From a virus, in IMG/VR virus record IMGVR_UViG_3300010883_000200, positions 1 through 33,690 of that record: a stretch of DNA of 33,690 bases. One strand, written 5' to 3'. This document shows, piece after piece, positions 9,709 to 33,597 of the stretch (position 1 is its first letter; each line of letters opens with the position of its first letter). A program made the translations under genes and the position numbers. Below the pieces are notes generated by a model, which did not search any database, was not told the DNA's origin, and saw nothing but the letters and a program-made list of their open reading frames with translations.

Positions 9709-11830
9709 TACCACTGAACCCTTGTTCGCCCGGAGTTGGTGCTGTACCTATGCCCATCTGAGCACCGCCGCTTCCTGTAGTGTCCTGTACACCTGCTGGG
9801 CCTTGTCCTTGTGGCGCTGGGCCACCTTGGGGCATTGGAACGCCTTCAGGGCCTGTAGGGGCCGGAGGTGGCGTCTGGAAGCCTTTGAGGATCTCAGCTT
9901 GGATAGCAGCATCCTGCATAGAGTTAGTAACCTTATCGGGATCAAGATCCATAGACTTAGCAATCTCACGAATGATGTAGTCCATCTTAGCAAAGGGAGC
10001 TAATACTGGGTTCTGTGCTACTTGCAGGAACTGCATTAATCGTTGTGAGCGTACTTCATTAGCCATAAGGCTCTCTGTACCGGATGCGCGAACTTCTAAG
10101 TCACCACGAATAGACTCATCAAAGTCAAACTGCATGTTAAATGCAAAGAATGCCTTACCCATTGGTCGTATAAGATAGTCATCAACGTTCTTAACTACTG
10201 CACGGATACTACCATTAGCAGCAGACATAAGCATACTAATACCAGAAGCAGTACGTCCAACACCACTGACTCCCGTTTGACCATGAGCAAAACTAGGGAA
10301 ACCAGTAGACTCATCAGCAAGTACTCGTGCTTTATCAAAGAGTTGCATGTTTTCTTGGGCTACGTTGGGGAACTTGGTGCCAAAGATTGCTTGACCCGGG
10401 GCACCCCCTTGACGCCTAAACACTTTTCCCGGGTACACACTTAAGTCCTGTCCAGGAACAAGGTTAGTCTCATCTACTTCAATAATGAGGTTACCAGATA
10501 GAGCAGCATTGTCAATAGCCATACGCATAAAGCCATTCATCAAGGTCTGCGTGTCATCCATGTTCTCAGCAATGCCGATACCAAAGAAGCTGTAAGGGTT
10601 ATGCTCATAAGGTACTGCATAGTATGGGATACGTGCTGGTTTAAATGGATTGAGTACAAAACGTAATACTTCTCCATTACATGTCCAGATGTTACAGTTA
10701 AGCTCATCTAAGTCTTTATACTCACGAGGTATCTTAACACCATGCTCTTCAAGAATGTCTACATCTACAAAACCCCAGAACTCCAACACTTCCCAGCGCT
10801 CTGACTCAGGAGTAGCTTCATCATCTTCCATAGCCATTTCCCAGTGCTTCTGCACATAGTCAGGGCCTTTGGAGATAGCAGTGTCCATAGCATCTTTCAT
10901 GAAGTATGGACGGTTTTTAAGGCCACGAAGTTGTGTGCGTGACATCTTATGGCGTTCAATAATGTACTCTGCGTCATCCATAGAAGCAGCTTCTGGATCA
11001 GGGTAGAAGTTCCAGCATGATACGTGATTTGTTTGTGGTACTGTTTTAACGATAGGTGAATACTCACCATCTTCATCCCAGTTAGGATACTCTTTATCTA
11101 CAGCAAAGGGGCCTTTCATGACACCTGTTCCAAGTAGAGCCATCTCAAAGGCCATAGAACGTAGATGCACAGATGCACCGGATTCGTCTAGCTGGTCATG
11201 GATCTTCTTTTCCATCTTTTTAGCTGCAATCAATGCAGGATGAAATGTAACTGTGCTTGGTGTAGTACCGTCACCCTCAATTAGCTTATCACTAACAGGG
11301 CCTAGTTTACCTGACAGAGGGCCTAAACGTGCAGATAGGTCATTAAGTGTCTCACCCGGCAATAGCTTAGTGTCAGGGCCTATAAGATAAGGTCTAGGAG
11401 CAGGTTGTTGTGTCACAGCTTTAAGTGCATCACCAGCAGCGGCAGCATTAGGGTCAATGTTAATGTGTACTGACTCTGCTACTCCATCTGGAAGTACAGA
11501 AGGGTCAACCGTCATAGGGAACTTGTTGTTACCGAATAGTACATCTGTAATAGAACCATAAGCAGCAAGTGTCTTGGTTTTAGTTACCTTAACAAACACA
11601 CGAGACTTCTCAGTGTCAGTAAACTTTACGCTAGAGCTATAGAGGCCACGATAGTTGCGGTATGCTTTAAGCCAACGCTCTTCATCTGAACGCCGTGAGT
11701 CTTCAGAACGTGTGAACCGTGATTGAACAAAAGAAACAACACTAGAGGCTTCTTCAAAGATACTATCCTTGGTATCCTCTGCTGCTGTTACATCGTCTGT
11801 CTCAAACGAAAGGTCGTTAATCTCTGCCAT
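9698..11830 (-). CDS. Portal protein
   Basis: A 710-residue protein immediately after the large terminase (12-bp gap) with portal-like features. The N-terminal half contains YRNYRGLYSSS (about 57-67) and FVKVTKTKTLAAYGSITDVLFG (about 78-99). A middle region reads MALLGTGVMKGPF (about 225-237) and then CWNFYPDPEAASMDDAEYI, the D-rich portal strand. SFFGIGIAENMDDTQTLMNGF (about 415-435) is the long helix that lines the channel. The C-terminus is Pro/Gly/Gln-rich. Length fits P22/HMO-2011-type portals. It is expected to form the dodecameric ring at one vertex through which DNA is packaged. Confidence 0.87.
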   Translation of the reverse strand: MAEINDLSFETDDVTAAEDTKDSIFEEASSVVSFVQSRFTRSEDSRRSDEERWLKAYRNYRGLYSSSVKFTDTEKSRVFVKVTKTKTLAAYGSITDVLFGNNKFPMTVDPSVLPDGVAESVHINIDPNAAAAGDALKAVTQQPAPRPYLIGPDTKLLPGETLNDLSARLGPLSGKLGPVSDKLIEGDGTTPSTVTFHPALIAAKKMEKKIHDQLDESGASVHLRSMAFEMALLGTGVMKGPFAVDKEYPNWDEDGEYSPIVKTVPQTNHVSCWNFYPDPEAASMDDAEYIIERHKMSRTQLRGLKNRPYFMKDAMDTAISKGPDYVQKHWEMAMEDDEATPESERWEVLEFWGFVDVDILEEHGVKIPREYKDLDELNCNIWTCNGEVLRFVLNPFKPARIPYYAVPYEHNPYSFFGIGIAENMDDTQTLMNGFMRMAIDNAALSGNLIIEVDETNLVPGQDLSVYPGKVFRRQGGAPGQAIFGTKFPNVAQENMQLFDKARVLADESTGFPSFAHGQTGVSGVGRTASGISMLMSAANGSIRAVVKNVDDYLIRPMGKAFFAFNMQFDFDESIRGDLEVRASGTESLMANEVRSQRLMQFLQVAQNPVLAPFAKMDYIIREIAKSMDLDPDKVTNSMQDAAIQAEILKGFQTPPPAPTGPEGVPMPQGGPAPQGQGPAGVQDTTGSGGAQMGIGTAPTPGEQGFSGNVA

Positions 11831-20357: not shown

Positions 20358-20519
20358 TCACACAGGCAATGTGCGGCGTTTCTAGTGGGGGGAAACTTTC
20401 TGCGACTTGCGACCTACTGGCCCCATGAAACATTCCAGCGGCTCTAAAACCAGCTTCTACGTTCATATTCAGCTTATTGCATATGGCTATCAATACGGTG
20501 ATAAATGGCCCCAAATAGA

Positions 20520-20579
20520 GCCTATATAAGTAGTGTAAAAAAGATGTGATTTTCCTGCCTATATAAGTAGTGTAAAAAA
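20520..20579. repeat. 23-bp direct repeat, two copies
   Basis: The 23-base unit beginning GCCTATATAAGTAGTG and ending in an A run occurs at 20520-20542 and 20557-20579, 37 bp apart and identical. AT-rich iteron-like units of this size occur at phage origins; on the minus strand the unit begins TTTTTTACACTAC. Purpose unknown. Confidence 0.65.
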
Positions 20580-20661
20580 CCATTGATGTTTTACATACTG
20601 GCACAAGCCATTGTGTCTTATTTGTCACTCAATTATTCTTATGGTAAAAACATGCATCTTT

Positions 20662-20690
20662 TTTACTTGCCAATCATTCCGATTTAATAT
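20662..20690 (+). promoter_or_regulatory. Possible sigma70-like promoter for the rightward genes
   Basis: TTTACT (20662-20667), exact 17-base spacer, TAATAT (20685-20690); each hexamer matches consensus at 4 of 6 positions. It points to the rightward operon and lies 110 bp before the structured-RNA candidate. Weak alone, supported mainly by position. Confidence 0.3.
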
Positions 20691-20799
20691 CTAAGTTGTT
20701 ACATCAAACAGGCAGTGAAGAGACTGACCACGTTATTTGAAAATAAATAGACTGAACCCACCTAGGCCAAGCGCCGATAATGGTAGTTAATACATTCAG

Positions 20800-20898
20800 T
20801 AGGGTAAGGGCGAAACATGCTACGGCATGCGCCAAAGAGACAAGAGGTTACGCAATAGACTGTTTCAGCAATGCGCTCGATCTTTAAAGCTTACCCTA
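20800..20898 (+). ncRNA. Structured leader RNA candidate (three-way-junction-like)
   Basis: A 9-bp outer stem TAGGGTAAG (20800-20808) with CTTACCCTA (20890-20898) encloses two arms. Arm one: GGCG/CGCC plus CATGC/GCATG separated by an AAA bulge and capped by TACG, a C(UACG)G tetraloop (20809-20833), stacked directly on the outer stem. Arm two: AAAGA (20834-20838) with TCTTT (20881-20885) and inner CGCA/TGCG (20851-20854, 20872-20875). It ends 31 bases before the first rightward gene's ATG. It could be a cis-regulatory leader or a free small RNA. No known class was recognised. Confidence 0.55.
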
Positions 20899-20929
20899 TC
20901 AATGTATCAACCAAGCCGGAGATAATAAA

Positions 20930-21139
20930 ATGAAAAACCTAATTGATGCCGTTAAAGCTTTTGCTTGTTCCAACTATGAAAAAGACGGTTGGGACATATT
21001 AGTTGAGTGTTATTCAGATGATGATATTGCTGAATTGATAGGCAATAGAAAAACAATAGATAGCGCGATAAAAGCTTGCCGCAAAGATGTAAAAGAGAGG
21101 GATAGTTGGCGCAAAGAAATAGAGGCAACAGCGTTTTAA
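20930..21139 (+). CDS. Small phage protein, first rightward gene
   Basis: A 69-residue, mostly helical, charged protein (MKNLIDAVKAFACSNYEKDG...). Contains YSDDDIAELIGNRKTIDSAI, reminiscent of small phage early proteins; no enzyme motif. CCGGAGATAATA ribosome site, repeated almost exactly before the gene at 21202. It sits directly after the leader RNA candidate, so any control by that RNA would act first on this gene. Confidence 0.7.
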   Translation: MKNLIDAVKAFACSNYEKDGWDILVECYSDDDIAELIGNRKTIDSAIKACRKDVKERDSWRKEIEATAF

Positions 21140-21183
21140 TATTAACGGTGACACTTTTAATAGTGTCACTTTATAATATTAAC
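21137..21183 (+). promoter_or_regulatory. Hairpin flanked by a direct repeat between two early genes
   Basis: GTGACACT (21148-21155) and AGTGTCAC (21162-21169) form a perfect 8-bp stem with a 6-base loop, followed by TTTATAATATT. It is bracketed by identical TAATATTAAC copies (21137-21146, 21174-21183). It may be an attenuating terminator or RNA-processing signal limiting expression of the downstream gene. Confidence 0.5.
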
Positions 21184-21201
21184 CCAACCGGAGATAATAC
21201 T

Positions 21202-21834
21202 ATGAAAGCCTTTACAATCAAACAAAACCCAAACCTTCCATCAACTATGGGATATGTCAAAAACATCCTTAAGACATACCGAATTGCAACTGTATCAGAT
21301 GTTGCGGATGGTGTGGAATGGTATGATAGAGCCAAGCGCATGGCGGCATGGGTTAGCTTAACGACTGGTGTTGATGAAAAATCAGTTATAGGCGTTTTTG
21401 CTGGCCTATCGCCTAACAATCGTTGGGAGCGCAATTGCAAGGATGGTTTGCGTATGTGTCAGGCATGGGTAAACGGTGAGACTTTGGATGATTTTAAGGT
21501 GTCATGTTACAATAAAATGAAACAGAAAGCTTGGTCCATTCTAGAGGATAACTTGACCGATGATGATGCTATCTTAACCCGTCTCAATGGGCAGAAAATA
21601 CGTTCATTCTACTCTAATATTCGTGGGCTAGATGAGGTGACTATCGATGGTCATGCGCTCAATATCGCAAGGGGCAAGCGCGAAGGCTTAACAAGTGACA
21701 AAACTAACATGGGGAAAAAGCAGTATCGTGAATTGCAAGCGGCATACGTAACGGCAGCTAAGCGCATAAAGATCAAGCCAAGCGAATTGCAAGCAATAAC
21801 TTGGACAACGTGGAAACGCATCCACAACATATAA
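21202..21834 (+). CDS. Conserved phage protein, HhH DNA-glycosylase-like pattern
   Basis: 210 residues from the ATG at 21202, chosen for its CCGGAGATAATA ribosome site; an earlier in-frame start at 21106 would overlap the previous gene. Features: GVFAGLSPNNRWERNCKDG (64-82), NGQKIRSFYSNI (129-140) and TIDGHALNIARG (147-158), ending ITWTTWKRIHNI. The G-x-K-I-x-x-F ... (V/T)-I-D-x-H sequence is reminiscent of helix-hairpin-helix DNA glycosylases, where a conserved D/H follows the hairpin. It could be a base-processing or DNA-binding protein. The family is recurrent in phages but its activity is unproven. Confidence 0.6.
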   Translation: MKAFTIKQNPNLPSTMGYVKNILKTYRIATVSDVADGVEWYDRAKRMAAWVSLTTGVDEKSVIGVFAGLSPNNRWERNCKDGLRMCQAWVNGETLDDFKVSCYNKMKQKAWSILEDNLTDDDAILTRLNGQKIRSFYSNIRGLDEVTIDGHALNIARGKREGLTSDKTNMGKKQYRELQAAYVTAAKRIKIKPSELQAITWTTWKRIHNI

Positions 21835-21844
21835 GGGGATTAAC

Positions 21845-22042
21845 ATGCTAATAATACAACGCGACTTCGGTTTTTTAGAGATCACCAAAGCGGGAGGCCT
21901 AACAGGCCAACGCAAGGTAATGATGATCAACGCAGAACGCGAAGAAATAACAGCCTTTAGAAAGGGGCAGCCTATCCAAACGGGTGGCTTTCTTGGTCAT
22001 CTAAATACTGAGGCACGCGACTTTCTAGAGGGCCGCTTCTAA
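21845..22042 (+). CDS. Hypothetical small protein
   Basis: A 65-residue protein (MLIIQRDFGFLEITKAGGL...) with an AAGGGGATTAAC ribosome site, 10 bases after the upstream gene. The early part could form a beta hairpin (FGFLEITKAGG, KVMMINAERE). No motif recognised. Confidence 0.6.
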   Translation: MLIIQRDFGFLEITKAGGLTGQRKVMMINAEREEITAFRKGQPIQTGGFLGHLNTEARDFLEGRF

Positions 22043-22052
22043 GCTTTAAAAG

Positions 22053-22072
22053 TACAGCCTTGAGGGGCTGTA
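22053..22072 (+). promoter_or_regulatory. Intercistronic hairpin
   Basis: TACAGCC (22053-22059) pairs with GGCTGTA (22066-22072), 7 bp with a 6-base loop, in the 64-bp gap after the 65-residue gene. No T tract follows, so RNA stability or processing is more likely than termination. Confidence 0.4.
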
Positions 22073-22106
22073 TCATTAAGGCACAACCAACAAAGGAGAA
22101 ACTATT

Positions 22107-22226
22107 ATGAAAACCATTAAAGAGATCATTAAGTTTTTTAAGGCTGTAAAACGTCACGCACCAAACATGCCCAAGAAAACACAGGCTATTCACGTGTGGG
22201 CTATAATTAAAGCCGATCTAAAATAA
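22107..22226 (+). CDS. 39-residue basic helical peptide
   Basis: Starts MKTIKEIIKFFKAVKRHA and ends HVWAIIKADLK. Strong AAAGGAGAAACTATT ribosome site. The N-terminal half is an amphipathic basic helix, which could bind membranes, nucleic acid or a host protein. Too short for assignment; kept because of the ribosome site and operon spacing. Confidence 0.55.
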   Translation: MKTIKEIIKFFKAVKRHAPNMPKKTQAIHVWAIIKADLK

Positions 22227-22238
22227 AGGAGCAATACG

Positions 22239-22442
22239 GTGACACATAACCTAGAACGCTATCACGCAGGCCGTGAAGCCGCCACAAAGTCTGCTGATGA
22301 CCCTAATTTTAATGTTGATGTGGCAATATCATCTTTTGACTATGACCCACCTGACAGCCCGTTTCAGCGTGGTTTTTTGCGGGGCTTATTAAAGTGTGGC
22401 TATGCCACAGTAACATCAAAATGGGATGGGGTATTAGTATGA
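22239..22442 (+). CDS. Hypothetical small protein, GTG start
   Basis: A 67-residue protein (MTHNLERYHAGREAATKSAD...), GTG start preceded by AAAGGAGCAATAC. Contains DYDPPDSPFQRGFLRGLL, a soluble, mixed-charge pattern. Its stop overlaps the next ATG (ATGA). Function unknown. Confidence 0.6.
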   Translation: MTHNLERYHAGREAATKSADDPNFNVDVAISSFDYDPPDSPFQRGFLRGLLKCGYATVTSKWDGVLV

Positions 22443-22582
22443 CAAATAAACCACAGGATTGGGAAATCATAGAACTATTCGACAGCACTAACTTGACGGT
22501 GCAACAGGTTGCTGATCATTTTGGGATCAGTACCAAAGAAGTAAAATCAACTCTAATGGCGCAGCCAGAATGGAACGACTAA
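22439..22582 (+). CDS. Small HTH-like protein
   Basis: A 47-residue protein from the coupled ATG at 22439 (a start at 22394 would overlap more). Residues about 19-39, LTVQQVADHFGISTKEVKSTL, match the spacing of a helix-turn-helix (QQVADHFGIS then recognition helix TKEVKSTL). It could be a small DNA-binding regulator or an anti-host protein. Few other regulators are visible in the window. Confidence 0.55.
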   Translation: MTNKPQDWEIIELFDSTNLTVQQVADHFGISTKEVKSTLMAQPEWND

Positions 22583-22806
22583 TGTTTATATGTATCGCAA
22601 CAAAGCCGCTTAATGATCGCACTGATGGTTTCCGCTTTAATCTGTGTGGCCTCAAAGGTCTAACACGTAAGCGCCAAAAGGTGCGGCGCTGGGGCTTAGA
22701 TAAGGGTAAAAGTATGCAGGCCGTGCACTTCGGCAAGCGCTCTATCTATATCGAAAAGAGTGCCAACAAAACCACAACGCGCCGTGTGCGCCACTTCGCA
22801 GGATAA
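22582..22806 (+). CDS. Hypothetical basic protein
   Basis: A 74-residue protein starting at the TAATG overlap (MFICIATKPLNDRTDGFRFN); an ATG at 22570 is also in frame. Arg/Lys-rich throughout (LTRKRQKVRRWGLDKGK, NKTTTRRVRH), suggesting nucleic-acid binding. No known family. Confidence 0.55.
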   Translation: MFICIATKPLNDRTDGFRFNLCGLKGLTRKRQKVRRWGLDKGKSMQAVHFGKRSIYIEKSANKTTTRRVRHFAG

Positions 22807-22811
22807 TCAAC

Positions 22812-23051
22812 ATGGAACGCTATTTCGTCAAATCAATGCGCCGCCTCACTCGCAGCGCCCAAGGCAACCCCCGCTTCAAGTTTATCGTGATAGATAGGGA
22901 GGGTGCAACGCGCACCCTTCACACAGAGGCAGATGCAGGCTGGGTCTATGCAATCACGCATGGCTGGGAAAATCGTATGATTGAGGCGTTCACCCGTGAG
23001 ACTAAAAAGGTTACGTTTATGACAGCCGCACAACTAGCAGAAAGGTTCTAG
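22812..23051 (+). CDS. Hypothetical protein
   Basis: A 79-residue protein (MERYFVKSMRRLTRSAQGNP...) with alternating strands (FKFIVIDREGATRTL) and a helical end (FMTAAQLAERF). Five bases separate it from the upstream stop. No motif recognised. Confidence 0.55.
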   Translation: MERYFVKSMRRLTRSAQGNPRFKFIVIDREGATRTLHTEADAGWVYAITHGWENRMIEAFTRETKKVTFMTAAQLAERF

Positions 23052-23055
23052 GGCC

Positions 23056-23199
23056 ATGCTTAGACTACACCTAACACGCACCACAGATGGCACAGCCTTG
23101 TGCTTTCATACGGTGAAAACCCTTCAAGAGGCTGACAAACATGCGGAAGCATATGCAGCCATGCAAAATATTACTGTAACAGTGGAGATTTTATCATGA
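23056..23199 (+). CDS. 47-residue hypothetical protein coupled to the methyltransferase
   Basis: MLRLHLTRTTDGTALCFHTV at the start, then a helix (KTLQEADKHAEAYAAMQ) and a strand (ITVTVEILS). Its TGA overlaps the methyltransferase ATG, so the two are translated together. Function unknown. Confidence 0.5.
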   Translation: MLRLHLTRTTDGTALCFHTVKTLQEADKHAEAYAAMQNITVTVEILS

Positions 23200-23924
23200 G
23201 CAAAGGTATCGTTTTGAGCCTGTACGACTTCACAGGCGAAGCACTAAAGCCATGGGCTGAAGCAGGTTACACTTGCTACGCCTTTGACATTCAACACCCT
23301 GTAGAGGGACATACAACAGACTTTTGGGGCTTGGGAAACATCCACTACCGCCACGCTGACCTGCATGATCAAGCTACACTAAACGCCATACAATCAGAGT
23401 TTGGTGATAAGCCTGTAGTATTCGGCATGGCTTTCCCTGTCTGTACTGACATGGCTGTAAGCGGTGCGGCACACTTCAAGCGCAAGGCAGAGGCCAACCC
23501 CTTCTTTCAGGCTGATGCAGTAGGACATGCAACGGCGGTGGCGCGTATGTTCAACGGCATGGCTATCCCTTACTTCATAGAGAACCCCGTGTCAGTGTTA
23601 GCTACCAAGTGGCGCAAGCCTGACTACAGTTTTCACCCCTATGAGTATGGCGGCTATATCCCTGACGATCAGGCAGAGCACCCACGTTGGCCTGAGTACA
23701 TTGCAGAACGTGATGCCTACCCCAAGAAGACATGCCTATGGACAGGCGGGGGCTTCAAGATGCCTTGGACTGATCCCGTAGCACCAGAGCAGGGCCACAG
23801 TAGGCAGCACCTAAAGCTTGGCGGTAAGTCACAGCGCACTAAAGATATACGCTCTGCCACACCCCGTGGCTTTGCTACAGCAGTATATGAGTTTAACAGT
23901 ATTGATGAAAAGGAGTATGCATAA
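23196..23924 (+). CDS. Orphan C5-cytosine DNA methyltransferase-like protein
   Basis: A 242-residue protein. Motif I-like start GIVLSLYDFTGEALKPWAEA (4-23), HADLHD (about 53), the catalytic-loop region GMAFPVCTDMAVSG (about 77-90, nucleophile Cys next to PV instead of the usual PPC/PCQ), and motif VI FIENPVSVLA (about 128-137). Then KKTCLWTGGG, which stands where motif VIII falls in this family. It is short for the family (usually over 300) and has no obvious separate target-recognition domain. Likely a phage protective methylase shielding DNA from host restriction. No restriction enzyme is adjacent. Confidence 0.78.
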   Translation: MSKGIVLSLYDFTGEALKPWAEAGYTCYAFDIQHPVEGHTTDFWGLGNIHYRHADLHDQATLNAIQSEFGDKPVVFGMAFPVCTDMAVSGAAHFKRKAEANPFFQADAVGHATAVARMFNGMAIPYFIENPVSVLATKWRKPDYSFHPYEYGGYIPDDQAEHPRWPEYIAERDAYPKKTCLWTGGGFKMPWTDPVAPEQGHSRQHLKLGGKSQRTKDIRSATPRGFATAVYEFNSIDEKEYA

Positions 23925-24115
23925 TGATTACTATCACACGCCGAAGCCCACTGACGGGCAGAACAAACACAATGCGCCTTGACCTATCGGAGGGTGCTTT
24001 ACATGCTTGGAATTGCGGTATGCTGGCACAGGATGCCATGCCTAACCTAAGCGCAGATGAACGTGAGTTTGTAATGACAGGCATCACACCCTATGAGTGG
24101 GAGGAGTATATCTAA
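23924..24115 (+). CDS. Conserved small phage protein
   Basis: A 63-residue protein starting MITITRRSPLTGRTNTMRLD and ending TADEREFxMTGITPxEW-like (here SADEREFVMTGITPYEWEEY). This pattern recurs in small proteins of many phages and plasmids, often early-expressed, with unknown role. Start by TAATG coupling to the methyltransferase gene, its stop by TAATG to the next. Confidence 0.72.
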   Translation: MITITRRSPLTGRTNTMRLDLSEGALHAWNCGMLAQDAMPNLSADEREFVMTGITPYEWEEYI

Positions 24116-24324
24116 TGGACATGGATAAATATTTTAGGCAGCTAGTAGGCTGCAAGATTGTAAGCTTTTACTTTCAGGAGGATGAATACGGTGCGAGAGA
24201 TTGGCCTGTGTTTATCATACAAAAGCCTAACAGTGAGGGGGGTGGTGAACTTATGGTTTCACTGTCTCAGGATGAGGAGGGCAACGGCGGTGGCTTTGCT
24301 TTCATAGAGGAGAACAAGGGATGA
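24115..24324 (+). CDS. Hypothetical small protein
   Basis: A 69-residue protein from the coupled ATG at 24115 (MDMDKYFRQLVGCKIVSFYF); an in-frame start at 24097 is less likely. Strand-rich core (CKIVSFYFQEDEYG, PVFIIQKPN) and a Gly-rich acidic end. Stop overlaps the next gene by 4 bases. Function unknown. Confidence 0.6.
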   Translation: MDMDKYFRQLVGCKIVSFYFQEDEYGARDWPVFIIQKPNSEGGGELMVSLSQDEEGNGGGFAFIEENKG

Positions 24325-24524
24325 AAACTCGTAAAGTTCAACTAAAAGTAACACGCACAGATACATGGTTCCCTGTTTATGAAGTACCAGCCGATATGGA
24401 TGACGATGCGGTTGAGACTTACATCAACAGTGAGGCCCCTGATGAAGTCTTTGACGAATACCATAACAAGTACACACTAGACACAGATACTTACTGCGAA
24501 GTAATGGATCATTTCTTACAGTAG
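24321..24524 (+). CDS. Hypothetical acidic protein
   Basis: A 67-residue acidic protein: MKTRKVQLKVTRTDTWFPVY then VPADMDDDAVETYINSEAPD. The basic strand followed by an acidic half is typical of small phage early proteins, some of which mimic DNA. No specific family recognised. Confidence 0.6.
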   Translation: MKTRKVQLKVTRTDTWFPVYEVPADMDDDAVETYINSEAPDEVFDEYHNKYTLDTDTYCEVMDHFLQ

Positions 24525-24536
24525 AGGAGAATATTA

Positions 24537-24779
24537 ATGTCTAACGAACCAGCACAGGCAGTGGTAATACCGCCACACATCTTTGTAGAGTTATATTCAA
24601 CTATTGCAGATGAAATGACTATGCACATATGTAACGCACGAGGGTTTGACATGTACCCACCAAACACAAAGGGTGATGATGTTAGCTACTCAGATGAAGC
24701 ACAAGAGATTTTCAACGGTCAATCCGACTATGCAGAGCAGATGTTAGAGCTTTGCGGTATCATCAAGGGAGATGAATAG
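24537..24779 (+). CDS. Hypothetical acidic protein
   Basis: An 80-residue protein with ribosome site AGAGGAGAATATTA. N-terminal PAQAVVIPPHIFVELYSTIA, then acidic and Met-rich helical segments. No recognised motif. Followed directly, with no gap, by the next ATG. Confidence 0.6.
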   Translation: MSNEPAQAVVIPPHIFVELYSTIADEMTMHICNARGFDMYPPNTKGDDVSYSDEAQEIFNGQSDYAEQMLELCGIIKGDE

Positions 24780-24959
24780 ATGTTACTTAGAGAGTTAACC
24801 AAGGCCCTAGCGGAGGGTAAGGATGTGCGCTGGGCTAGTGATGGCTACAAAGTGTGGTGGGATGGCAACATGATCTGTGCCATTTACGAGAATAACGGTT
24901 TTAATTGCGCTCTTACTTCAGGTGAGGTAGAGCAGTGTTACATCAAAGGAGAGAAGTAA
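24780..24959 (+). CDS. 59-residue hypothetical protein
   Basis: MLLRELTKALAEGKDVRWAS at the start, then DGYKVWWDGNMICAIYENNG and an acidic end. Two or three Trp, three Cys. The frame fills the space between two genes exactly (starts right after a stop, ends in a TAATG overlap), which is the main support. Confidence 0.55.
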   Translation: MLLRELTKALAEGKDVRWASDGYKVWWDGNMICAIYENNGFNCALTSGEVEQCYIKGEK

Positions 24960-25090
24960 TGGACAAGAAAACAAAAGCTAAGATTATTGCCATAATAGAG
25001 GAGCACGTAAAGGTTCCTAAAGGCATGGAAGACCATGTATGCGATACGCTGTATAAGGCATACGTAGAAGCTAGAGAGGAGATGAAGTAA
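24959..25090 (+). CDS. 43-residue helical protein
   Basis: MDKKTKAKIIAIIEEHVKVP at the start, then GMEDHVCDTLYKAYVEAREEMK. Probably all helical. TAATG couplings at both ends; ribosome site AAAGGAGAGAAG overlaps the upstream gene end. Function unknown. Confidence 0.55.
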   Translation: MDKKTKAKIIAIIEEHVKVPKGMEDHVCDTLYKAYVEAREEMK

Positions 25091-25350
25091 TGAAACGTAA
25101 CTACAGGACAGCATTCAATCAGCTAAAAAAGATTGGCGTTCCCGTCTATGAGGGTGGCTACAACGGTGATGATACCTTCCGCATCTCAGCAGAGGAAAAC
25201 TATGACACAGTGTGGGCTGACTACTACAGAGAGTTTGATGCAGGGCTGGATGACTTTGGTGTGAACCACAGGATCAACGACATCCTGTCTGACAATGGGC
25301 TGTATGCTGAGTGGGAAAACGGTGGAGTATTGGGAGTGTCAGAGCAATGA
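25090..25350 (+). CDS. Conserved hypothetical phage protein
   Basis: An 86-residue protein with the recurrent NYRTAFNQLKKIGVPVYE start, FRISAEENYDTVWADYY (about 31-47), FGVNHRINDILSDNGLYAEW and GVLGVSEQ ending. The same arrangement is seen in small proteins of phages and bacteria, with no known activity. ATGA overlap to the next gene. Confidence 0.7.
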   Translation: MKRNYRTAFNQLKKIGVPVYEGGYNGDDTFRISAEENYDTVWADYYREFDAGLDDFGVNHRINDILSDNGLYAEWENGGVLGVSEQ

Positions 25351-25556
25351 TACCAAGTAGAGCCTTGAAGGTATACAAAACAATCAGCAATTCTGAGTTC
25401 TATGTAACAACAGTGTTCACACCCTATGATGCAACCATTCTAATGGATCGCTTACTCAAAGAGGCAGGTGTGATGCAGGTACGCCTCAGAACAGCCAAGG
25501 GCCGTACACTCTTGACCAACACTCGCAGCCGTAAGGGGCCAAAGTATGCTAGATAA
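25347..25556 (+). CDS. Hypothetical basic protein
   Basis: A 69-residue protein from the coupled ATG at 25347 (MIPSRALKVYKTISNSEFYV). A start at 25311 is in frame but lies deep in the upstream gene. Basic C-terminus (TAKGRTLLTNTRSRKGPKYA). No recognised family. Confidence 0.6.
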   Translation: MIPSRALKVYKTISNSEFYVTTVFTPYDATILMDRLLKEAGVMQVRLRTAKGRTLLTNTRSRKGPKYAR

Positions 25557-25617
25557 ACTAATAACTATCTTTATCCTATGGCCCTTTATTGGTTTGCTTA
25601 TAGCCTATGCCTTTTGA
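25546..25617 (+). CDS. 23-residue membrane peptide
   Basis: MLDKLITIFILWPFIGLLIA plus YAF: essentially one transmembrane helix. The ATG overlaps the upstream gene end by 11 bases. Tiny membrane peptides occur in phages as host-membrane effectors, but this could also be chance. No strong ribosome site. Confidence 0.35.
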   Translation: MLDKLITIFILWPFIGLLIAYAF

Positions 25618-25744
25618 GGGACTACCCAATGAGGACGATCCGCACGATGACTGCACTCATTGGGCAGGTCACTTATCAAAAAAACAGAAAGGAGAAATAA
25701 AAGATGATACCAAAGAGCACAGACAGGCTAGAGAAGGTCTTTAA
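25607..25744 (+). CDS. 45-residue acidic peptide overlapping the integrase start
   Basis: MPFEGLPNEDDPHDDCTHWA then GHLSKKQKGEIKDDTKEH. It overlaps the membrane peptide by 11 bp and the integrase gene by 41 bp in another frame. It may be a coupling peptide or chance. It holds a 9-bp inverted repeat. Confidence 0.3.
   Translation: MPFEGLPNEDDPHDDCTHWAGHLSKKQKGEIKDDTKEHRQAREGL
25625..25664 (+). repeat. 9-bp inverted repeat upstream of the integrase
   Basis: CCCAATGAG (25625-25633) and CTCATTGGG (25656-25664), 22 bases apart, 40 bp before the integrase ATG. Possible RNA hairpin controlling integrase translation or an integrase/regulator binding site. Confidence 0.45.
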
Positions 25745-26615
25745 CTTCTACTTGCAGAGTGATGACTTCGCTAGGCTCAGCGGTAGCACTCAAACATCCT
25801 ACTACAATTACCTACAGAAAGTAGGAGACACTAAGGTTAGCGGTAAGATGCTAAAAAACTTCAGGGTAGGGGACATCAGAGCAAGCCACCTTAACACCGC
25901 CTATGAAGGGTGGGTCAAGATAGGGGTACGCACAGCCAACTACATGAAGGCAGCACTTAGCGTTGCTTGGAAGTATTCCCTGCGTAAGGACGTTATGACC
26001 CATGACCCTGTATCAATCATAAAGACACAAGCATCCACCACTAGGCGGGTGAAGTGGGAGAAGGAGCACATCAAGCAATTCCTGACTGTTGGTTACGGTG
26101 ATATCAAATGGAGAAGTATTACCCTGATTGTGCATATGGCTTATGATTGGGGCCAGCGTATAGGCGACATGAGAGTTCTTAAATGGGATAAGCTAGACCT
26201 GACACAGTGCCGCATGGACTTAACACAGTCTAAGCGAGGCGCAGAGGTGCACTTACCTATCAGTCCAGGATTGTGTAAAATGTTGCAACAGCAGAAGTCC
26301 GACTTTGGCTTCCAAGATTATGTAGCACCACGAGTTAAGCCACAGGCAGGGGCCTACACGCCCTACAATAAGGAGGAGATATCTCGTCTTATCAATGCGT
26401 TACTAGAAGAAGCTAAGCTACCATCAAAGCTAACAGCTATGGATTTACGCAGGACAGCCGTGACTGAGATGATGGAGGCGGGGGTTGACCTTGCTGGTAT
26501 CATGCAGGTAACAGGGCATAAGAACGTAGCCAGCATTAAGCCGTACATGGTCAATACATTCAGTGGGGCCAGTAAGGCTCTAGCAGCCAGAGGAAATGAT
26601 GATGAACATTCGTAA
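25704..26615 (+). CDS. int: Tyrosine recombinase / phage integrase
   Basis: A 303-residue protein with an N-terminal SAM-like core-binding domain (about 10-105) and a catalytic domain. Active-site set: R152 (WGQRIGD), K177 (QSKRG), D247 and R250 (MDLRRTA, where HxxR is usual), H272 (TGHKN) and Y281 (IKPYM). The first His of the family is replaced by Asp, a substitution seen in some members. Strong AAAGGAG ribosome site. It joins phage and host attachment sites for lysogeny. It lies within the replication operon and overlaps the primase start. No attP site was recognisable nearby. Confidence 0.9.
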   Translation: MIPKSTDRLEKVFNFYLQSDDFARLSGSTQTSYYNYLQKVGDTKVSGKMLKNFRVGDIRASHLNTAYEGWVKIGVRTANYMKAALSVAWKYSLRKDVMTHDPVSIIKTQASTTRRVKWEKEHIKQFLTVGYGDIKWRSITLIVHMAYDWGQRIGDMRVLKWDKLDLTQCRMDLTQSKRGAEVHLPISPGLCKMLQQQKSDFGFQDYVAPRVKPQAGAYTPYNKEEISRLINALLEEAKLPSKLTAMDLRRTAVTEMMEAGVDLAGIMQVTGHKNVASIKPYMVNTFSGASKALAARGNDDEHS

Positions 26616-27390
26616 GTATCTCGACAGCATGGACTTGCGTGATGATGAGTCGCGTAGGCTCAACTGTCCTGTATGCCATGCCAAGAATACTTTTACGGTA
26701 ACAAAGGAGATGGGCCAGATAAAGTACAACTGTTACAAGTTGGACTGTTCGATAGGCGGCTACCATCACACAGACATGACAGCAGCAGAGATCAAGCTAC
26801 TGTTATCTAATAGAGAAATACCAGTAGCACGAGAGGCAGAGACTATGGAGATACCGGAGTATGTTGTACAGCCCAGCACAGAGCACGATAAGTTCCATCA
26901 GTTTGTTGGACGCTGGGGTATCCAGAATACACGGCTACTGTATGACGTTAAGGATGAACGTGTTGTATTCCCTATTCACTACAAGGGCCGCATCATTGAC
27001 GCTAACGGTAGGTCAGTAGGCGGCAAGACACCTAAGTGGTATCGCTACACAGGCAAGGCTGACTACTACACGGTAGGGCAGGGCACTACTCTGCTTGTGG
27101 TTGAGGACTGTGTATCAGCTATAGTAGCCTATCAGGAGTTACCTAACGTGACAGCTATGGCTATCCTAGGTACATCACTAACAGCCAATCATATGGCTAA
27201 AATAGGTGAGTATGACAGGGTGATCGTGGCACTAGACCCTGATGCAGCACACAAGACGTTGCAGTTCAGCAGAGAGATAGCACTATGGACAGGCGCTAAA
27301 AGTACAGCCTTCCGCCTTGACGATGATATCAAATACAAGTTAAGTGGTGACTTGGATCGACTAAAGGAGATTATACAATGCGTACCTTAA
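26602..27390 (+). CDS. DNA primase (zinc finger + TOPRIM), gp4-like N-terminal half
   Basis: 262 residues from the third of three tandem ATGs (26596, 26599, 26602), the one best spaced from AGAGGAA. N-terminal zinc-binding domain CPVC ... CYKLDC. The TOPRIM catalytic fold has VVEDCVSAIVAYQE with the acidic residue, followed by AILGTSLTANHM and VIVALDPDAAHK (DxD). This corresponds to the primase half of T7 gp4, split from the helicase. It synthesises RNA primers for the lagging strand together with the helicase encoded 2 kb downstream. Confidence 0.85.
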   Translation: MNIRKYLDSMDLRDDESRRLNCPVCHAKNTFTVTKEMGQIKYNCYKLDCSIGGYHHTDMTAAEIKLLLSNREIPVAREAETMEIPEYVVQPSTEHDKFHQFVGRWGIQNTRLLYDVKDERVVFPIHYKGRIIDANGRSVGGKTPKWYRYTGKADYYTVGQGTTLLVVEDCVSAIVAYQELPNVTAMAILGTSLTANHMAKIGEYDRVIVALDPDAAHKTLQFSREIALWTGAKSTAFRLDDDIKYKLSGDLDRLKEIIQCVP

Positions 27391-27560
27391 AAGACTTTCT
27401 CAAAGAGATGGGCCTAGAAGGGGTAAACCCTAAGGACACAACACGTAAGCTGCATGAAGCCATAATGAAAGATATCATGGAGAGACATACTAAGCCTGAG
27501 TACATGAATCCAGGATTTTATATTGATCCACGAGATCACAACGGTGAGGTACCATTCTAA
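27378..27560 (+). CDS. Hypothetical protein
   Basis: A 60-residue protein (MRTLKDFLKEMGLEGVNPKD...) overlapping the primase end by 13 bases and the thyX start by one. Ends PGFYIDPRDHNGEVPF. Helical first half, no motif. Probably a small accessory of the replication module. Confidence 0.6.
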   Translation: MRTLKDFLKEMGLEGVNPKDTTRKLHEAIMKDIMERHTKPEYMNPGFYIDPRDHNGEVPF

Positions 27561-28261
27561 TGATAACAGCAACTTATATAGACCATATGGGCAGCGACTT
27601 ATCTGTAGCCAATGCAGCCCGTGTTAGCTTTGGTAAGACATCTGAGATGGAAGAGAATACTTGGGGGCCACCAACACTAAAAGCTAAAGATGCTAAGCTT
27701 ATCAACTACTTAGCTAGTCATGGTCATATCAGTCCATTCGGGCATTGCTTCGCATCTTTTCATGTTAAGGCACCTGTTTTTGTGGCAAGACAGTTGGTCA
27801 AGCATTCGTTTTTGCGGTGGAATGAAGTATCGAGGCGCTACGTCGATGATAAACCTGAGTTCTATGTGCCTGATGTGTGGCGTGGTCGTAGTGCTGATAA
27901 GAAACAGGGTTCTGATGGTATTGTAGACCTAGAGGATTGGAGTGATCGTGGCGGAGATTTCGAGAACATTACTGGAGAAGGCACCCTGATAGATTACCTA
28001 TGGATGAAAAAGCATTCTGATTTTGAGGCGTATGACTTACTTATCAAGGCAGGTGTAGCCCCCGAACAAGCACGTATGGTCTTACCACAAAGCACAATGA
28101 CTGAGTGGTACTGGTCAGGTAGCCTTGATGCCTTCGCACGTATGTGTAAACTTCGTTGCACCCATGACACACAGGCAGAGACACAGAAGGTAGCATGGGA
28201 CATTAGTTTAAAGATGGAAGAGTTATTCCCTGTATCATGGGTGGCATTGAGAGATGAGTAA
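27560..28261 (+). CDS. thyX: Flavin-dependent thymidylate synthase ThyX
   Basis: A 233-residue protein making dTMP from dUMP using FAD, NADPH and methylenetetrahydrofolate. Signature region [14 protein letters not shown] (81-94), corresponding to the RHRx7S motif; the usual R-H-R is K-H-S here, while the second half NExSRRY is intact. Other conserved parts: HISPFGH (56-62, FAD/substrate pocket), [15 protein letters not shown] (171-185) and QAETQKVAW. It fits the phage need for dTTP during replication. Overlaps its neighbour by 8 bases. Confidence 0.92.
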
Positions 28262-28469
28262 AATTTATGACCTAGAAGAGATGATCATGGACTGCTGGTC
28301 TGTTTGTAATGACCTTGGAGTAGTTCTCCGACAGGTAGGTGATGGTAACCGTGACCCTACACCTGATGAAATGATGAACACCCTGATGGGTATGCAACAG
28401 CTATACCATTGGAAGTTTGAGCAACTGTTCAACAAGTATGAGGATATACTAGAGGCACAGCGTAAGTGA
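28254..28469 (+). CDS. Conserved small helical phage protein
   Basis: A 71-residue protein ([20 protein letters not shown]...) with helical [20 protein letters not shown] end. Similar DLEExIMxCW proteins recur in marine phages next to replication genes. Overlaps thyX by 8 bases; function unknown. Confidence 0.68.
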
Positions 28470-28470
28470 C

Positions 28471-28513
28471 ACCACTGTATTAGTTAAGTGGTAATACTTG
28501 CCATTACTAATAC
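28471..28513 (+). promoter_or_regulatory. Two mutually exclusive hairpins in the only operon gap
   Basis: ACCACT (28471-28476) pairs with AGTGGT (28487-28492). GTATTAGT (28477-28484) pairs with ACTAATAC (28506-28513). GTAAT/ATTAC (28491-28495, 28503-28507) is a third option. The first two cannot form together, an attenuator-like layout. It lies in the 62-bp gap before the next gene. Confidence 0.45.
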
Positions 28514-28531
28514 CATAGTAGGAGATGATGA

Positions 28532-28693
28532 ATGACCAAGCGTATACCCATGAAGGGTGGTGACGAGTACGATGGACTTACTAAAGCACGTAGGTTTTTA
28601 CACTGGAAAGCTGGTCAGTTAAAGAAGATCAAACGTGCGTACAATAAAAGGTTCCGTAAGCATAGCAAGGATATAACAAATGACGGACAATGA
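28532..28693 (+). CDS. Conserved basic phage protein
   Basis: A 53-residue protein (MTKRIPMKGGDEYDGLTKAR), then RRFLHWKAGQLKKIKRAYNK and a basic end. This GGDEYDxLTKxRRFLHWK pattern is recurrent in small proteins of T7-like and marine phages. Overlaps the next gene by 14 bases. Likely DNA/RNA-binding; not proven. Confidence 0.7.
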   Translation: MTKRIPMKGGDEYDGLTKARRFLHWKAGQLKKIKRAYNKRFRKHSKDITNDGQ

Positions 28694-28856
28694 TTGGCCC
28701 TTAGAGGCAGACTTCACTGATGTAAGACCTATGACACCAGAAGAACGTAAGGCAGCACTAGATCGTGAGAAGGCTAACAACTTCATAGCCACATGTGTTA
28801 GTTGCGGTGGCCCATCAAAGAATATCTTCTGTGGTTTCTGTTTGGAGGAAGAATAA
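28680..28856 (+). CDS. Small zinc-ribbon protein
   Basis: A 58-residue protein with acidic N-terminus (MTDNDWPLEADFTDVRPMTP) and C-terminal CVSCGG ... CGFCLEEE, a four-Cys zinc ribbon. No own strong ribosome site; translation coupled by overlap. Possible role in transcription or nuclease control. Confidence 0.6.
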   Translation: MTDNDWPLEADFTDVRPMTPEERKAALDREKANNFIATCVSCGGPSKNIFCGFCLEEE

Positions 28857-28972
28857 TGGATAAACTATTATTGCTACGGCAACTACTTAAACAGGCAGGC
28901 ATAGAATATGTAGTCACCCGTGTTGAGGGTGGTACGGTGGCACACTTAAATGTTTATGTAGGAGATGAATAA
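28856..28972 (+). CDS. 38-residue hypothetical protein
   Basis: MDKLLLLRQLLKQAGIEYVV then TRVEGGTVAHLNVYVGDE. TAATG coupling on both ends and a helix-strand-strand pattern. Function unknown. Confidence 0.5.
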   Translation: MDKLLLLRQLLKQAGIEYVVTRVEGGTVAHLNVYVGDE

Positions 28973-29214
28973 TGTACACTGTAGAGTTTGAATCTGATGC
29001 AGCAGTAATCACTACACTAGATCAAAAGGATATGTTCGAGGATGTTGAGCTTGTTATAGGTGATGAAGGTGTAGTCTACATGCGACAGTGGGATGACTTT
29101 GAGAATGGTTTTCAGCTATTAGTCATGAGCCAACAGCAACTACTAGACCTTATGGCTGCTTACAACAGTACAGAAGGTGCCTACTACATTAAAATACAAA
29201 GGAAAAATAAATGA
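28972..29214 (+). CDS. Hypothetical acidic protein
   Basis: An 80-residue protein (MYTVEFESDAAVITTLDQKD...), strand-rich (VELVIGDEGVVYMRQW) with a helical middle and the end GAYYIKIQRKNK. Ribosome site GTAGGAGATGAATA overlaps the upstream gene end. No motif recognised. Confidence 0.62.
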   Translation: MYTVEFESDAAVITTLDQKDMFEDVELVIGDEGVVYMRQWDDFENGFQLLVMSQQQLLDLMAAYNSTEGAYYIKIQRKNK

Positions 29215-29423
29215 ATGAACTAGGGCAGGGCTTTTTTGGTGGCATCTTCCTTATGTATGTGTTAGCGTTACCTCTGCTTTATCACATGGTTGAACCTGAG
29301 GATGAGGAAGAAGATAACAGAGGCCCAATTAAGTTTGCTTTCATGTGGCCCATCGTGGCTTTGGAAGTTATATATAAGATTCTTGTAGGAGAGAAAGACG
29401 ATGATGGAACTAGCGCTAATTAA
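29211..29423 (+). CDS. Small membrane protein of the replication operon
   Basis: A 70-residue protein with two likely transmembrane segments (FFGGIFLMYVLALPLLYHMV about 8-27; IKFAFMWPIVALEVIYKILV about 40-59) separated by an acidic loop (EPEDEEEDNRG). The stop overlaps the helicase start. Similar two-helix proteins occur next to helicase genes in marine phages; it may tether replication to the membrane. Confidence 0.7.
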   Translation: MNELGQGFFGGIFLMYVLALPLLYHMVEPEDEEEDNRGPIKFAFMWPIVALEVIYKILVGEKDDDGTSAN

Positions 29424-30627
29424 GACGTTACTTAAACGTGACTTCTATGAACAACATAAGGGCATACGCTGCCCTGATAAGATCTTTACTAAGGACATAC
29501 GCAAGATCAAGCAGGCACTAGATGCTGCTATGAAAACGTATGAAGGGGATCTCAACACGTCTGACCTAGAGGCATTGTTCTATGCTCAGAACCAGACAAT
29601 GACTACAGCAACCAAGTCTGCCTATGAGGATCTCTTTCGTAAGATCGACAAAGAGAACACTATCAAAGAAGAGATAGCAACAGATGTTCTAGGCAAGATG
29701 TTCCAACAGTATGTAGGTGAACAGGTTGCTAACTTGGGCTTTGACTTTGTGAACGGCACACAGACTAGCCTTGAACCACTACGCCGCATGTTGGAGAACT
29801 ACAAAGATGACTTTACTCCTAATCTTCGCATTGAGTGGGACGACATTAGCATTGACACTCTACTCAGCGCCAACGATCTTCAGACGCAGTGGAAGTTCAA
29901 CATACCCAGCCTCCGTAGGAAGGTGGAAGGCGTTAGCGGCGGTCATCTGTTGCTGGTCGGCGCTAGGCCTAATACTGGCAAGACATCTTTCCACGCCTCT
30001 CTAATTGCAGGTGTAGGTGGCTGGGCACATCAGGGTGCCAAGTGTATTGTCCTGTGTAACGAGGAGGCATATGAGCGCGTAGGAGCACGGTATCTTAGTG
30101 CAGCCGCCAACATGTCAATGGATGAGGTTAAGGCTAACGTAGCCCTCGCACGTAGCCGCTATGAGCCTGTCAGGAAGAATATCCGCATCAAGGACAGCAC
30201 TAACAAAGATATGCAGTGGGTTGAGTCCATCGTTAAGCAGGAACGTCCAGACATTCTAATCCTGGATATGGGTGACAAGTTCGCAACCAAGAACAGCGAG
30301 AAGTCAGACGTGTATCTAAAGGATGCAGCTATCTATGCGCGTAACATTGCTAAGCAGTATGACTGTTGTGTTGTATGGATGTCACAGTTGAGTGCAGTAG
30401 CAGAGGGTAAGGTCTACGTTGATCAGTCAATGATGGAAGGCTCTAAGACAGGTAAAGCTGCTGAAGCTGACCTCATGGTGTTGATCTCTAAGAACCCTAT
30501 CGTTGAGGGTGCAGATGAAGAAGACACACAACGCCACTTGAATATAGCTAAGAACAAGCTTAAGGGTGGCTGGCATGGTGTTGTACACTGTGAGTTAGAC
30601 GGGGCGAGATCGCTATATCAAGCCTAG
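29401..30627 (+). CDS. Replicative DNA helicase (DnaB/gp4 C-terminal type)
   Basis: A 408-residue protein. The N-terminal 150 residues are helical; the RecA-type ATPase then has Walker A GARPNTGKT (187-195), an NEEA segment (220-223), Walker B PDILILDM (283-290), a sensor segment CVVWMSQLS (323-331), and GSKTGKAAEADLMV (347-360). It unwinds DNA ahead of the polymerase and recruits the primase. It lacks the zinc/TOPRIM domains, which are encoded separately at 26602. First ATG used (29401), with AGGAGAG site; ATG at 29404 is equivalent. Confidence 0.9.
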   Translation: MMELALIKTLLKRDFYEQHKGIRCPDKIFTKDIRKIKQALDAAMKTYEGDLNTSDLEALFYAQNQTMTTATKSAYEDLFRKIDKENTIKEEIATDVLGKMFQQYVGEQVANLGFDFVNGTQTSLEPLRRMLENYKDDFTPNLRIEWDDISIDTLLSANDLQTQWKFNIPSLRRKVEGVSGGHLLLVGARPNTGKTSFHASLIAGVGGWAHQGAKCIVLCNEEAYERVGARYLSAAANMSMDEVKANVALARSRYEPVRKNIRIKDSTNKDMQWVESIVKQERPDILILDMGDKFATKNSEKSDVYLKDAAIYARNIAKQYDCCVVWMSQLSAVAEGKVYVDQSMMEGSKTGKAAEADLMVLISKNPIVEGADEEDTQRHLNIAKNKLKGGWHGVVHCELDGARSLYQA

Positions 30628-30640
30628 AGGAGAGAGAAAC

Positions 30641-32689: not shown

Positions 32690-32730
32690 TGTATAACTAA
32701 GACTCTCTTAAAACATGTAAGGAAAAACAC

Positions 32731-33597
32731 ATGAGTACAGAACTATCAGTAACAGGTCATGAAGGCAAATCATTGGCAGAACTTATGGGGGTGTCAGCAC
32801 CTACCTCTAGTGGTCCAACGATTGCACGTCTGAACCTAGTACAGTCACCTATGATGGGTGAAATAGAAGTAAACGGCAAGAAGCTCCGCACTGAGGTGAT
32901 CGGTGTCGGTGCATTCAAGATCACTATGGGTGATGATACCTATTACGCAAACAGCGTTAAGTTACGGGTATTCACACAGCGTCAGCAGTGGCAGCGCTGG
33001 AACTCAGACACTAACGAGATGGAAAAGTCTGTCTTGGCTAACTCTGTCAACAGCGACTTGGCTGACAGTGTTGGTGGCTTTAACTTAGGTCGTCCATCTG
33101 GTTACATTGAGGATTGGAATGCTCTTCCAGATAAGACAAAGGACATCATCCGTAGTGTTAAACGTGTGAAGGTTGTTATGGGTGCACTTACAGTGGATTC
33201 CGTAATGAACGAAATGGGTGAGCCTGTTGTAGTAGAGATCAACAACATGCCTGTTATCTTTGACGTTAAAAACCGCGATAGTCTTAAGGCATTGGATAGT
33301 TCACTGTCTGCACTACACCGGAAGAACCTGCTACCTATCATGGCTAACTTAAGCGTTGATGGTGTTATAGGAGATCTACCAAACGGCAATCAGTATGCTT
33401 ACTTCAAGTCTGCTGTAGCTGATACGGTTGAACTCTCTGACGGGGATAATCAGACGCTCCAAGACTTCTTGGAACTGATCTCCTACATCAATACAAAGAT
33501 CATGGACCTGCATCATGAGCGGTCTGGTTCAAGTATGTCAAAGGAAGATACAGATCTTGTATCGTCTATCATTGATGTAGATGAGGCACCATTCTAA
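32731..33597 (+). CDS. Probable single-stranded DNA-binding protein
   Basis: A 288-residue protein next to the polymerase. It looks beta-rich in the middle (MGEIEVNGKKLRTEVIGV, DDTYYANSVKLRVFTQRQQW, then VKVVMGALTVD) and ends IIDVDEAPF, an acidic tail with terminal Phe. This is the interaction tail of SSB and T7 gp2.5 proteins that bind polymerase and helicase. The order helicase, polymerase, SSB-like fits a replisome operon. No OB-fold can be proven by eye. Ends one base into the next gene. Confidence 0.6.
   Translation: MSTELSVTGHEGKSLAELMGVSAPTSSGPTIARLNLVQSPMMGEIEVNGKKLRTEVIGVGAFKITMGDDTYYANSVKLRVFTQRQQWQRWNSDTNEMEKSVLANSVNSDLADSVGGFNLGRPSGYIEDWNALPDKTKDIIRSVKRVKVVMGALTVDSVMNEMGEPVVVEINNMPVIFDVKNRDSLKALDSSLSALHRKNLLPIMANLSVDGVIGDLPNGNQYAYFKSAVADTVELSDGDNQTLQDFLELISYINTKIMDLHHERSGSSMSKEDTDLVSSIIDVDEAPF

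Follow-up and report, generated by a model that had tools for sequence, protein, structure and literature searches.

The leader RNA that precedes the first rightward gene of a marine phage probably acts in cis as an antitermination element, which imitates the rRNA leader of the host and recruits Nus factors for the early operon. Its boxA and hairpin resemble the rRNA leader of Rhodobacterales, so the phage probably borrows the machinery of its host for long operons. The folded segment at 20800-20898, to which the earlier note had drawn attention, was found to be only the variable 3' domain of this leader of approximately 200 nt.

Early operon and layout of its leader

The window, namely the whole stretch of DNA analyzed here, is the 33.7-kb virus record IMGVR_UViG_3300010883_000200 of IMG/VR and derives from a marine phage. 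Its leftward genes are structural, and its rightward genes span 20930-33597, with more than 12.6 kb on the same strand behind the element. No tRNA or tmRNA gene was found in the window. The family A DNA polymerase carries a DnaJ-type Cys motif; it is 75% identical to the enzyme of Roseobacter phage CRP-603 and 57% identical to the HMO-2011 enzyme. From the gene content and the polymerase identity, the element is identified as the 5' leader of the early operon in an HMO-2011-like phage, the host of which is probably a member of Rhodobacterales. The features of the leader and the operon are as follows.

20667-20695, + strand: putative sigma70-type promoter (-35 TTGCCA at 20667-20672, 17-nt spacer, -10 TCTAAG at 20690-20695)
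20711-20729, + strand: hairpin I, GGCAGU-GAAGAG-ACUGACC, directly 5' of boxA in the minimum free energy (MFE) structure
20731-20740, + strand: boxA CGTTATTTGA (family form YGYTNTTTGANA; host rRNA TGCTCTTTGACATTG)
20760-20784, + strand: hairpin II, ACC-[UA]-GGC-CAAGC-GCC-[GAUAAU]-GGU
20790-20907, + strand: domain III, the segment 20800-20898 plus an outer extension, closed by TAGGGTAAG/CTTACCCTA; variable fold
20916-20925, + strand: ribosome-binding region of gene 1, GCCGGAGATA, seen in the sequence
20930-21139, + strand: gene 1 of the rightward operon, 69 aa, no Pfam family
21148-21169, + strand: weak hairpin between genes 1 and 2, GTGACACT-TTTAAT-AGTGTCAC then TTTATAAT, seen in the sequence
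21202-33597, + strand: remaining early operon (DUF7178, tyrosine integrase, Toprim-like primase, ThyX, DnaB-like helicase, DNA polymerase A and others)

The promoter is treated as putative because the strict promoter scan did not list it and it was assigned by eye; transcription from it is predicted to start at about 20702. The arrangement TTGNNN-17-NNNNNN also occurs 5' of the element in L006, L007, L013 and other phage contigs. The sequence TTTGACA within the leader was also weighed as a second promoter, but was rejected because no consistently spaced -10 element accompanied it. Upstream of the leader, at 20519-20580, two copies of the direct repeat TATATAAGTAGTGTAAAAAA were observed, which are possibly promoter- or regulator-binding sites.

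A string resembling the ribosome-binding region of gene 1, CAACCGGAGATAATA, precedes gene 2. The weak hairpin at 21148-21169 may possibly be a terminator or attenuator for antitermination to pass, or a processing site; the terminator scan listed this stem for the - strand only, and strong intrinsic terminators within the operon were not evident in that scan.

The fold of domain III was largely as the earlier note had described it. The 9-bp closing stem is perfect (TAGGGTAAG at 20800-20808 with CTTACCCTA at 20890-20898) and extends outward through ATACATT (20790-20796) paired with AATGTAT (20901-20907). The adjacent two-part stem with its tetraloop, GGCG..CATGC(UACG)GCATG..CGCC, is also present, and the distance of 31 nt between 20898 and the ATG at 20930 was confirmed. 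Chance is indeed a poor explanation of such nested pairing, since the MFE of 20790-20910 was -39.2 kcal/mol against a mean of -24.6 for shuffled sequences (z = -4.48), and 0 of 200 shuffles were as stable. The second arm is less certain: AAAGA (20834-20838) and TCTTT (20881-20885) are complementary as claimed, but the MFE structure pairs 20879-20885 with 20843-20849 and the centroid structure omits that helix. That 20800-20898 acts as a terminator or attenuator was rejected, as no U-run follows 20898 and the segment is absent from the terminator scan list. Domain III might insulate the core from the start codon or aid folding of the core, which is a guess.

The conserved core in phages

The search of the leader against 50,697 phage records by blastn gave no match. 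The IMG/VR contig L001 shares the leader as far as its own end, which lies inside domain III, and around the core it differs from the window in the loops of hairpins I and II and at bases that are unpaired in the model; the loop change is the only one in hairpin I. In L006, L007/L009 and L012 the similarity is confined to the upstream part, CACGTTATTTGA..CCTAGGC-loop-GCCGATAATGG, and domain III is a different one, with another fold. Domain III is therefore a variable module, and the conserved core lies upstream of it. Between L006 and L007/L012 the closing helix of the domain is kept with both arms changed (AAAGAGGAT/ATCCTCTTT versus CTAGG..AAGC/GCTT..CCTAG), so that compensatory change was seen at the level of the domain in relatives; the only close relative of the window, L001, ends inside domain III.

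The family was gathered by a degenerate-pattern scan of IMG/VR and subsequent sorting of the matches. It comprises 48 distinct elements, all viral, including the window and the GenBank record of SIO1, of the form boxA YGYTNTTTG, about 14-36 nt, and the hairpin UA-GG..CC-GAUAAU. As boxA was part of the search pattern, its presence in 48/48 members is by design, and the invariance of UAGG and CCGATAAT is likewise by construction; the final set was, in addition, limited to matches with two outer pairs. Evidence independent of this selection nonetheless supports the structure. Where boxA is followed by ANMA, 22 of the 24 matches have two or more outer pairs, whereas the commonest value in the other matches was 0. 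In alignment A1 of 45 distinct phage hairpins II, 84.7% of the cells were paired when compared to 59.9% after shuffling, and the covariation score over all pairs was 0.608 against 0.155 for shuffled and at most 0.112 for slid alignments. The inner pair of columns 11-21, which lay outside the selection, was kept in 43/45 hairpins with 20 double changes, and the pair of columns 4-32 in 35/45 with 18 double changes.

Hairpins at the position of hairpin I showed a moderate tendency across the family (mean z = -1.5). In the window, GACTGAA/TTCAGT had been noticed by eye as a helix that encloses hairpin II, but such a helix is not general in the family (mean z = -0.1); it was clear in L124, L163 and L164, and seen by eye in L143 and L166.

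Scanning 257 Gb of bacterial and archaeal contigs with a related, somewhat stricter pattern returned 11 matches, none of them convincing. Streptococcus prophages as carriers were dropped, as these matches look like chance or coding sequence. The element at the phage spacing is essentially viral.

Carriers fall into three groups: HMO-2011-like phages, Siovirus/Lentibacter phages, and large phages that have tRNA arrays. In SIO1 the element lies upstream of gp9; L013 corresponds to ICBM1 and L016 to ICBM2. These named carriers (SIO1, ICBM1/ICBM2) infect Rhodobacterales. In nine large-phage contigs (L129, L137, L159, L161, L167, L171, L176, L185 and L197) the element lies within or heads a tRNA array; the carrier contigs of large phages reach 317 kb. 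Most of the searched records contain one copy, and a second copy with GATGAT occurs in two. The first genes behind the element vary among phages, being a gene for a 69-aa protein, DUF7178, a gene for a 93-aa protein, or tRNAs.

The core pattern was absent from CRP-603, CRP-2, CRP-1, CRP-345, HMO-2011, DSS3P8 and CRP-738, and one poor match in DSS3_MAL1 was not accepted. The element is therefore not essential to the HMO-2011-like group, as CRP-603, CRP-2 and HMO-2011 lack it, and with CRP-1 and CRP-345 also lacking it, it comes and goes between relatives. DSS3P8 (L223) and DSS3_MAL1 (L224) are Ruegeria phage isolates with large tRNA arrays and no core pattern; tRNA-rich roseophages thus do not all carry the element.

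In the large phages L129 (about 10950-11090), L161 (about 4060-4200), L197 and L137, a long arm pair CTCTGTTTTCACATGC.. / ..TGAAAACAGAG between the element and the first tRNA encloses a structured stretch, which has the look of a stalk for RNase III processing or of another RNA.

Similarity to the rRNA leaders of Rhodobacterales

Host leaders were taken from plasmid-borne rRNA operons chosen only by a 16S match. All six Rhodobacterales leaders with a boxA, which had not been selected for the hairpin, contain a UA/GAU[G/U]AU hairpin; a seventh leader, of Ketogulonicigenium, stands outside this count, having no boxA within the stretch compared. The order in these leaders is boxA (TGCTCTTTGACATTG), boxC (ATATGYGGGCGG) and then the hairpin. 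The individual forms are as follows.

Ruegeria: boxA TGCTCTTTGACATTGTT; hairpin CUC-UUA-GGAC..GUCC-GAUGAU-UGAG
Alloyangia: boxA CGCTCTTTGACATCG; hairpin CUUC-UA-GGGU..ACCC-GAUGAU-GAAG
Falsirhodobacter: hairpin CUGG-UA-GGGU..GCCC-GAUGAU-CCAG
Thioclava: hairpin CUCAC-UA-GGGU..GCCC-GAUGAU-GUGAG
Pseudosulfitobacter: hairpin CUCU-UA-GG..CC-GAUUAU-AGAG
Pseudorhodobacter: hairpin UCUC-UA-GA..UC-GAUGAU-GAGA

The motif was absent in 5/5 leaders from outside the order (Sinorhizobium, Azospirillum, Methylobacterium, Sphingobium and Burkholderia), and the hairpin that the E. coli leader has in this position is only loosely similar, its loop being different. About 18 further Rhodobacterales-type rRNA leaders were obtained by a pattern search of whole genomes. 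In the host alignment A2 (22 hairpins), 92.8% of the cells were paired when compared to 68.0% after shuffling, with covariation scores of 0.702 and 0.256, respectively.

The boxA of host rRNA (TGCTCTTTGACATTG) is matched by the phage family in YGYTNTTTGANATT. Several members (L125, L166) share YGCTCTTTGACATTGTTA with the host boxA, whereas the window shares only CGTTATTTGA, which differs from TGCTCTTTGA at three positions. A Firmicutes host for the large-phage group was considered and dropped, as the CTCTTTGAAAATTT-type boxA is also found in the Rhodobacterales-type rRNA leader G343.

As in bacterial rRNA antitermination leaders (boxB-boxA-boxC, rrnTAC; E. coli rrn), the phage element has a boxA with a promoter directly upstream and a long operon downstream, for stable RNA (rRNA) in the one case and for early genes in the other. 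It further shares with the Rhodobacterales leaders the hairpin with a UA/GAUNAU internal loop 3' of boxA, the loop being mostly GAUAAU in phages and GAUGAU or GAUUAU in host rRNA. Unlike these leaders, it is phage-borne and lacks boxC, 16S and the leader-trailer helix. No boxC (GYGGGCGG) was seen between boxA and the hairpin in the 48 phage sequences, and the distance between the two is about 14-36 nt in phages as against about 60-90 nt in rRNA leaders. The phage element is therefore not a copy of the whole leader and, boxC being missing, is likened to it in its working and not classed as an rRNA leader. Mimicry of the Rhodobacterales rRNA leader by the phage core is nevertheless well supported by these comparisons, and the likeness of the hairpin could reflect either descent from a host leader or convergence.

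The earlier note had offered a new cis-regulatory element, a phage sRNA or a replication RNA, and had recognized no known class. The first proposal came near: 20800-20898 is very probably part of a cis-acting structured leader RNA, but the functional core at 20731-20784 lies upstream of it and had been missed. Rfam indeed gave no match in the window at gathering scores and only chance-level matches at relaxed scores (E<=10), and no Rfam family accounts for the element; the core is nonetheless recognizable as a boxA (rRNA/nut-type) antitermination leader. A free-standing riboswitch, sRNA or replication RNA with no Nus-related role, which would suit a strong fold belonging to no Rfam class, is extremely improbable, as the strong fold is the part that is not conserved, whereas what is conserved has its match in host rRNA leaders and is found in tRNA arrays as well. 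Nothing was found in support of an sRNA or a replication RNA.

Proposed antitermination and alternative functions

In rRNA operons and lambda nut sites, boxA binds NusB-S10 and starts the assembly of a modified polymerase (PMC6614801, PMC10250234). For the phage leader we infer, from sequence comparison, transcription from the promoter at 20667-20695, Nus binding, antitermination and a protein partner of the hairpin, which would place the element among the boxA-based antitermination leaders. Once the host polymerase has moved off the early promoter, boxA and the UA/GAUAAU hairpin would be exposed on the nascent RNA. BoxA would be expected to bind NusB-S10, and the hairpin would be read by whatever recognizes its counterpart in the rRNA leaders of the host. 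In this way the polymerase would be converted to the rRNA-type, Nus-modified form that resists Rho and pausing, and could read the whole early operon, perhaps with no phage antiterminator. Against this reading stand the repression that the boxA complex of E. coli can exert at suhB and the reported intrinsic resistance of rRNA to Rho (PMC5725501), as well as the scan of the operon, in which strong intrinsic terminators were not evident.

An arrangement like that of lambda, with boxA and the hairpin as a boxB equivalent for a phage-encoded N-like protein in place of a host factor, is unlikely. The element does have the order of the lambda nut site, boxA then hairpin (PMC6614801), and, like it, follows an early promoter and heads an early operon. 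However, in place of a 15-nt boxB it has a hairpin with an internal loop, which host rRNA also has; as the host has the same hairpin, a host reader is simpler and a host factor is favored as its partner. The first genes after the element also differ between phages, and a non-exhaustive look at the adjacent genes revealed no conserved neighbor that could be an N-like gene.

In phage HK022, two put stem-loops bring about factor-independent antitermination. Put is not known to contain a boxA. The phage leader resembles put as a cis-acting structured RNA that starts an early transcript with no antiterminator gene adjacent, and differs from put in that boxA is a defining part of it. Put acts by RNA alone (PMC9378689).

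The E. coli boxA complex can also repress, at suhB, and a boxA in a 5' UTR can thus act on an mRNA (PMC5725501). By analogy, a Nus complex on the phage leader might block translation of the first gene and favor Rho termination; boxA likewise lies within an mRNA leader here, and the leader ends shortly 5' of a start codon. We consider this reading very unlikely, as silencing its own whole early operon would be an odd purpose for a phage and the presence of the element in the tRNA arrays of nine contigs argues against a purely translational function. The suhB leader is repressed, unlike what is proposed here, and the UA/GAUAAU hairpin is not described for it.

Another function, namely that the Nus complex and the stems mainly aid RNA maturation (RNase III sites, tRNA excision) and not processivity, draws on work with rRNA. 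The Nus complex at rRNA chiefly aids rRNA folding (PMC5725501), and in E. coli the helices hA/hB of the leader have a role in 30S biogenesis (PMC10250234). In L129 the complementary arms CTCTGTTTTCA / TGAAAACAGAG lie before a tRNA gene. In the window and most podovirus-like members, however, the transcript is an mRNA with nothing obvious to mature, and maturation as the main function is quite improbable. As the phages keep boxA and the hairpin without 16S rRNA, a role in transcription is separable from a possible role in ribosome assembly, and this is directly testable.

The antitermination reading can be widened, and we give the wider form about even chances. It holds that a movable rRNA-leader mimic is common to Rhodobacterales phages that are not related to one another (HMO-2011-like podoviruses, phages of the Siovirus type and large tRNA-rich phages), by which mimic host RNA polymerase is made rRNA-type processive on early and tRNA operons with no phage antiterminator protein, and that the UA/GAUNAU hairpin is an undescribed part of Rhodobacterales rRNA transcription complexes. 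The question addressed is how abundant marine phages with no RNA polymerase of their own read long early operons in Rho-bearing hosts. If true, a phage mimic of the host rRNA leader would answer it for several phage groups at once, and would draw attention to the hairpin of the Rhodobacterales rRNA leaders, which covaries and has a near-invariant internal loop. The literature found covers lambda N, put, rrnTAC and suhB; it included few subscription papers or preprints, so that its silence is not proof, and it contained no rRNA-leader-like boxA/hairpin element in roseophages and no UA/GAUNAU hairpin in Rhodobacterales. The phage boxA/UA-GAUAAU element thus appears to be undescribed.

Other leaders were observed in related phages. 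CRP-603 (L109), CRP-2 (L112), CRP-1 (L116) and CRP-345 (L118) have other conserved short leaders before the first gene, for example GTTACACAGATAGTTTAATATCTCTCCCTTTAGGGTGAGAGAGAT.. in CRP-1/CRP-345; as close relatives carry different conserved leaders, leader modules seem to be swapped. The leaders before DUF7178 genes in four further contigs (L042 at 5312, L048 at 3506, L059 at 734 and L060 at 81) have a near-identical boxA, AACGTTATTTGACA, with another hairpin or a truncated CTAGGGTACACCGATAGG replacing the UA/GAUAAU hairpin, and boxA may have been kept there while the hairpin was exchanged.
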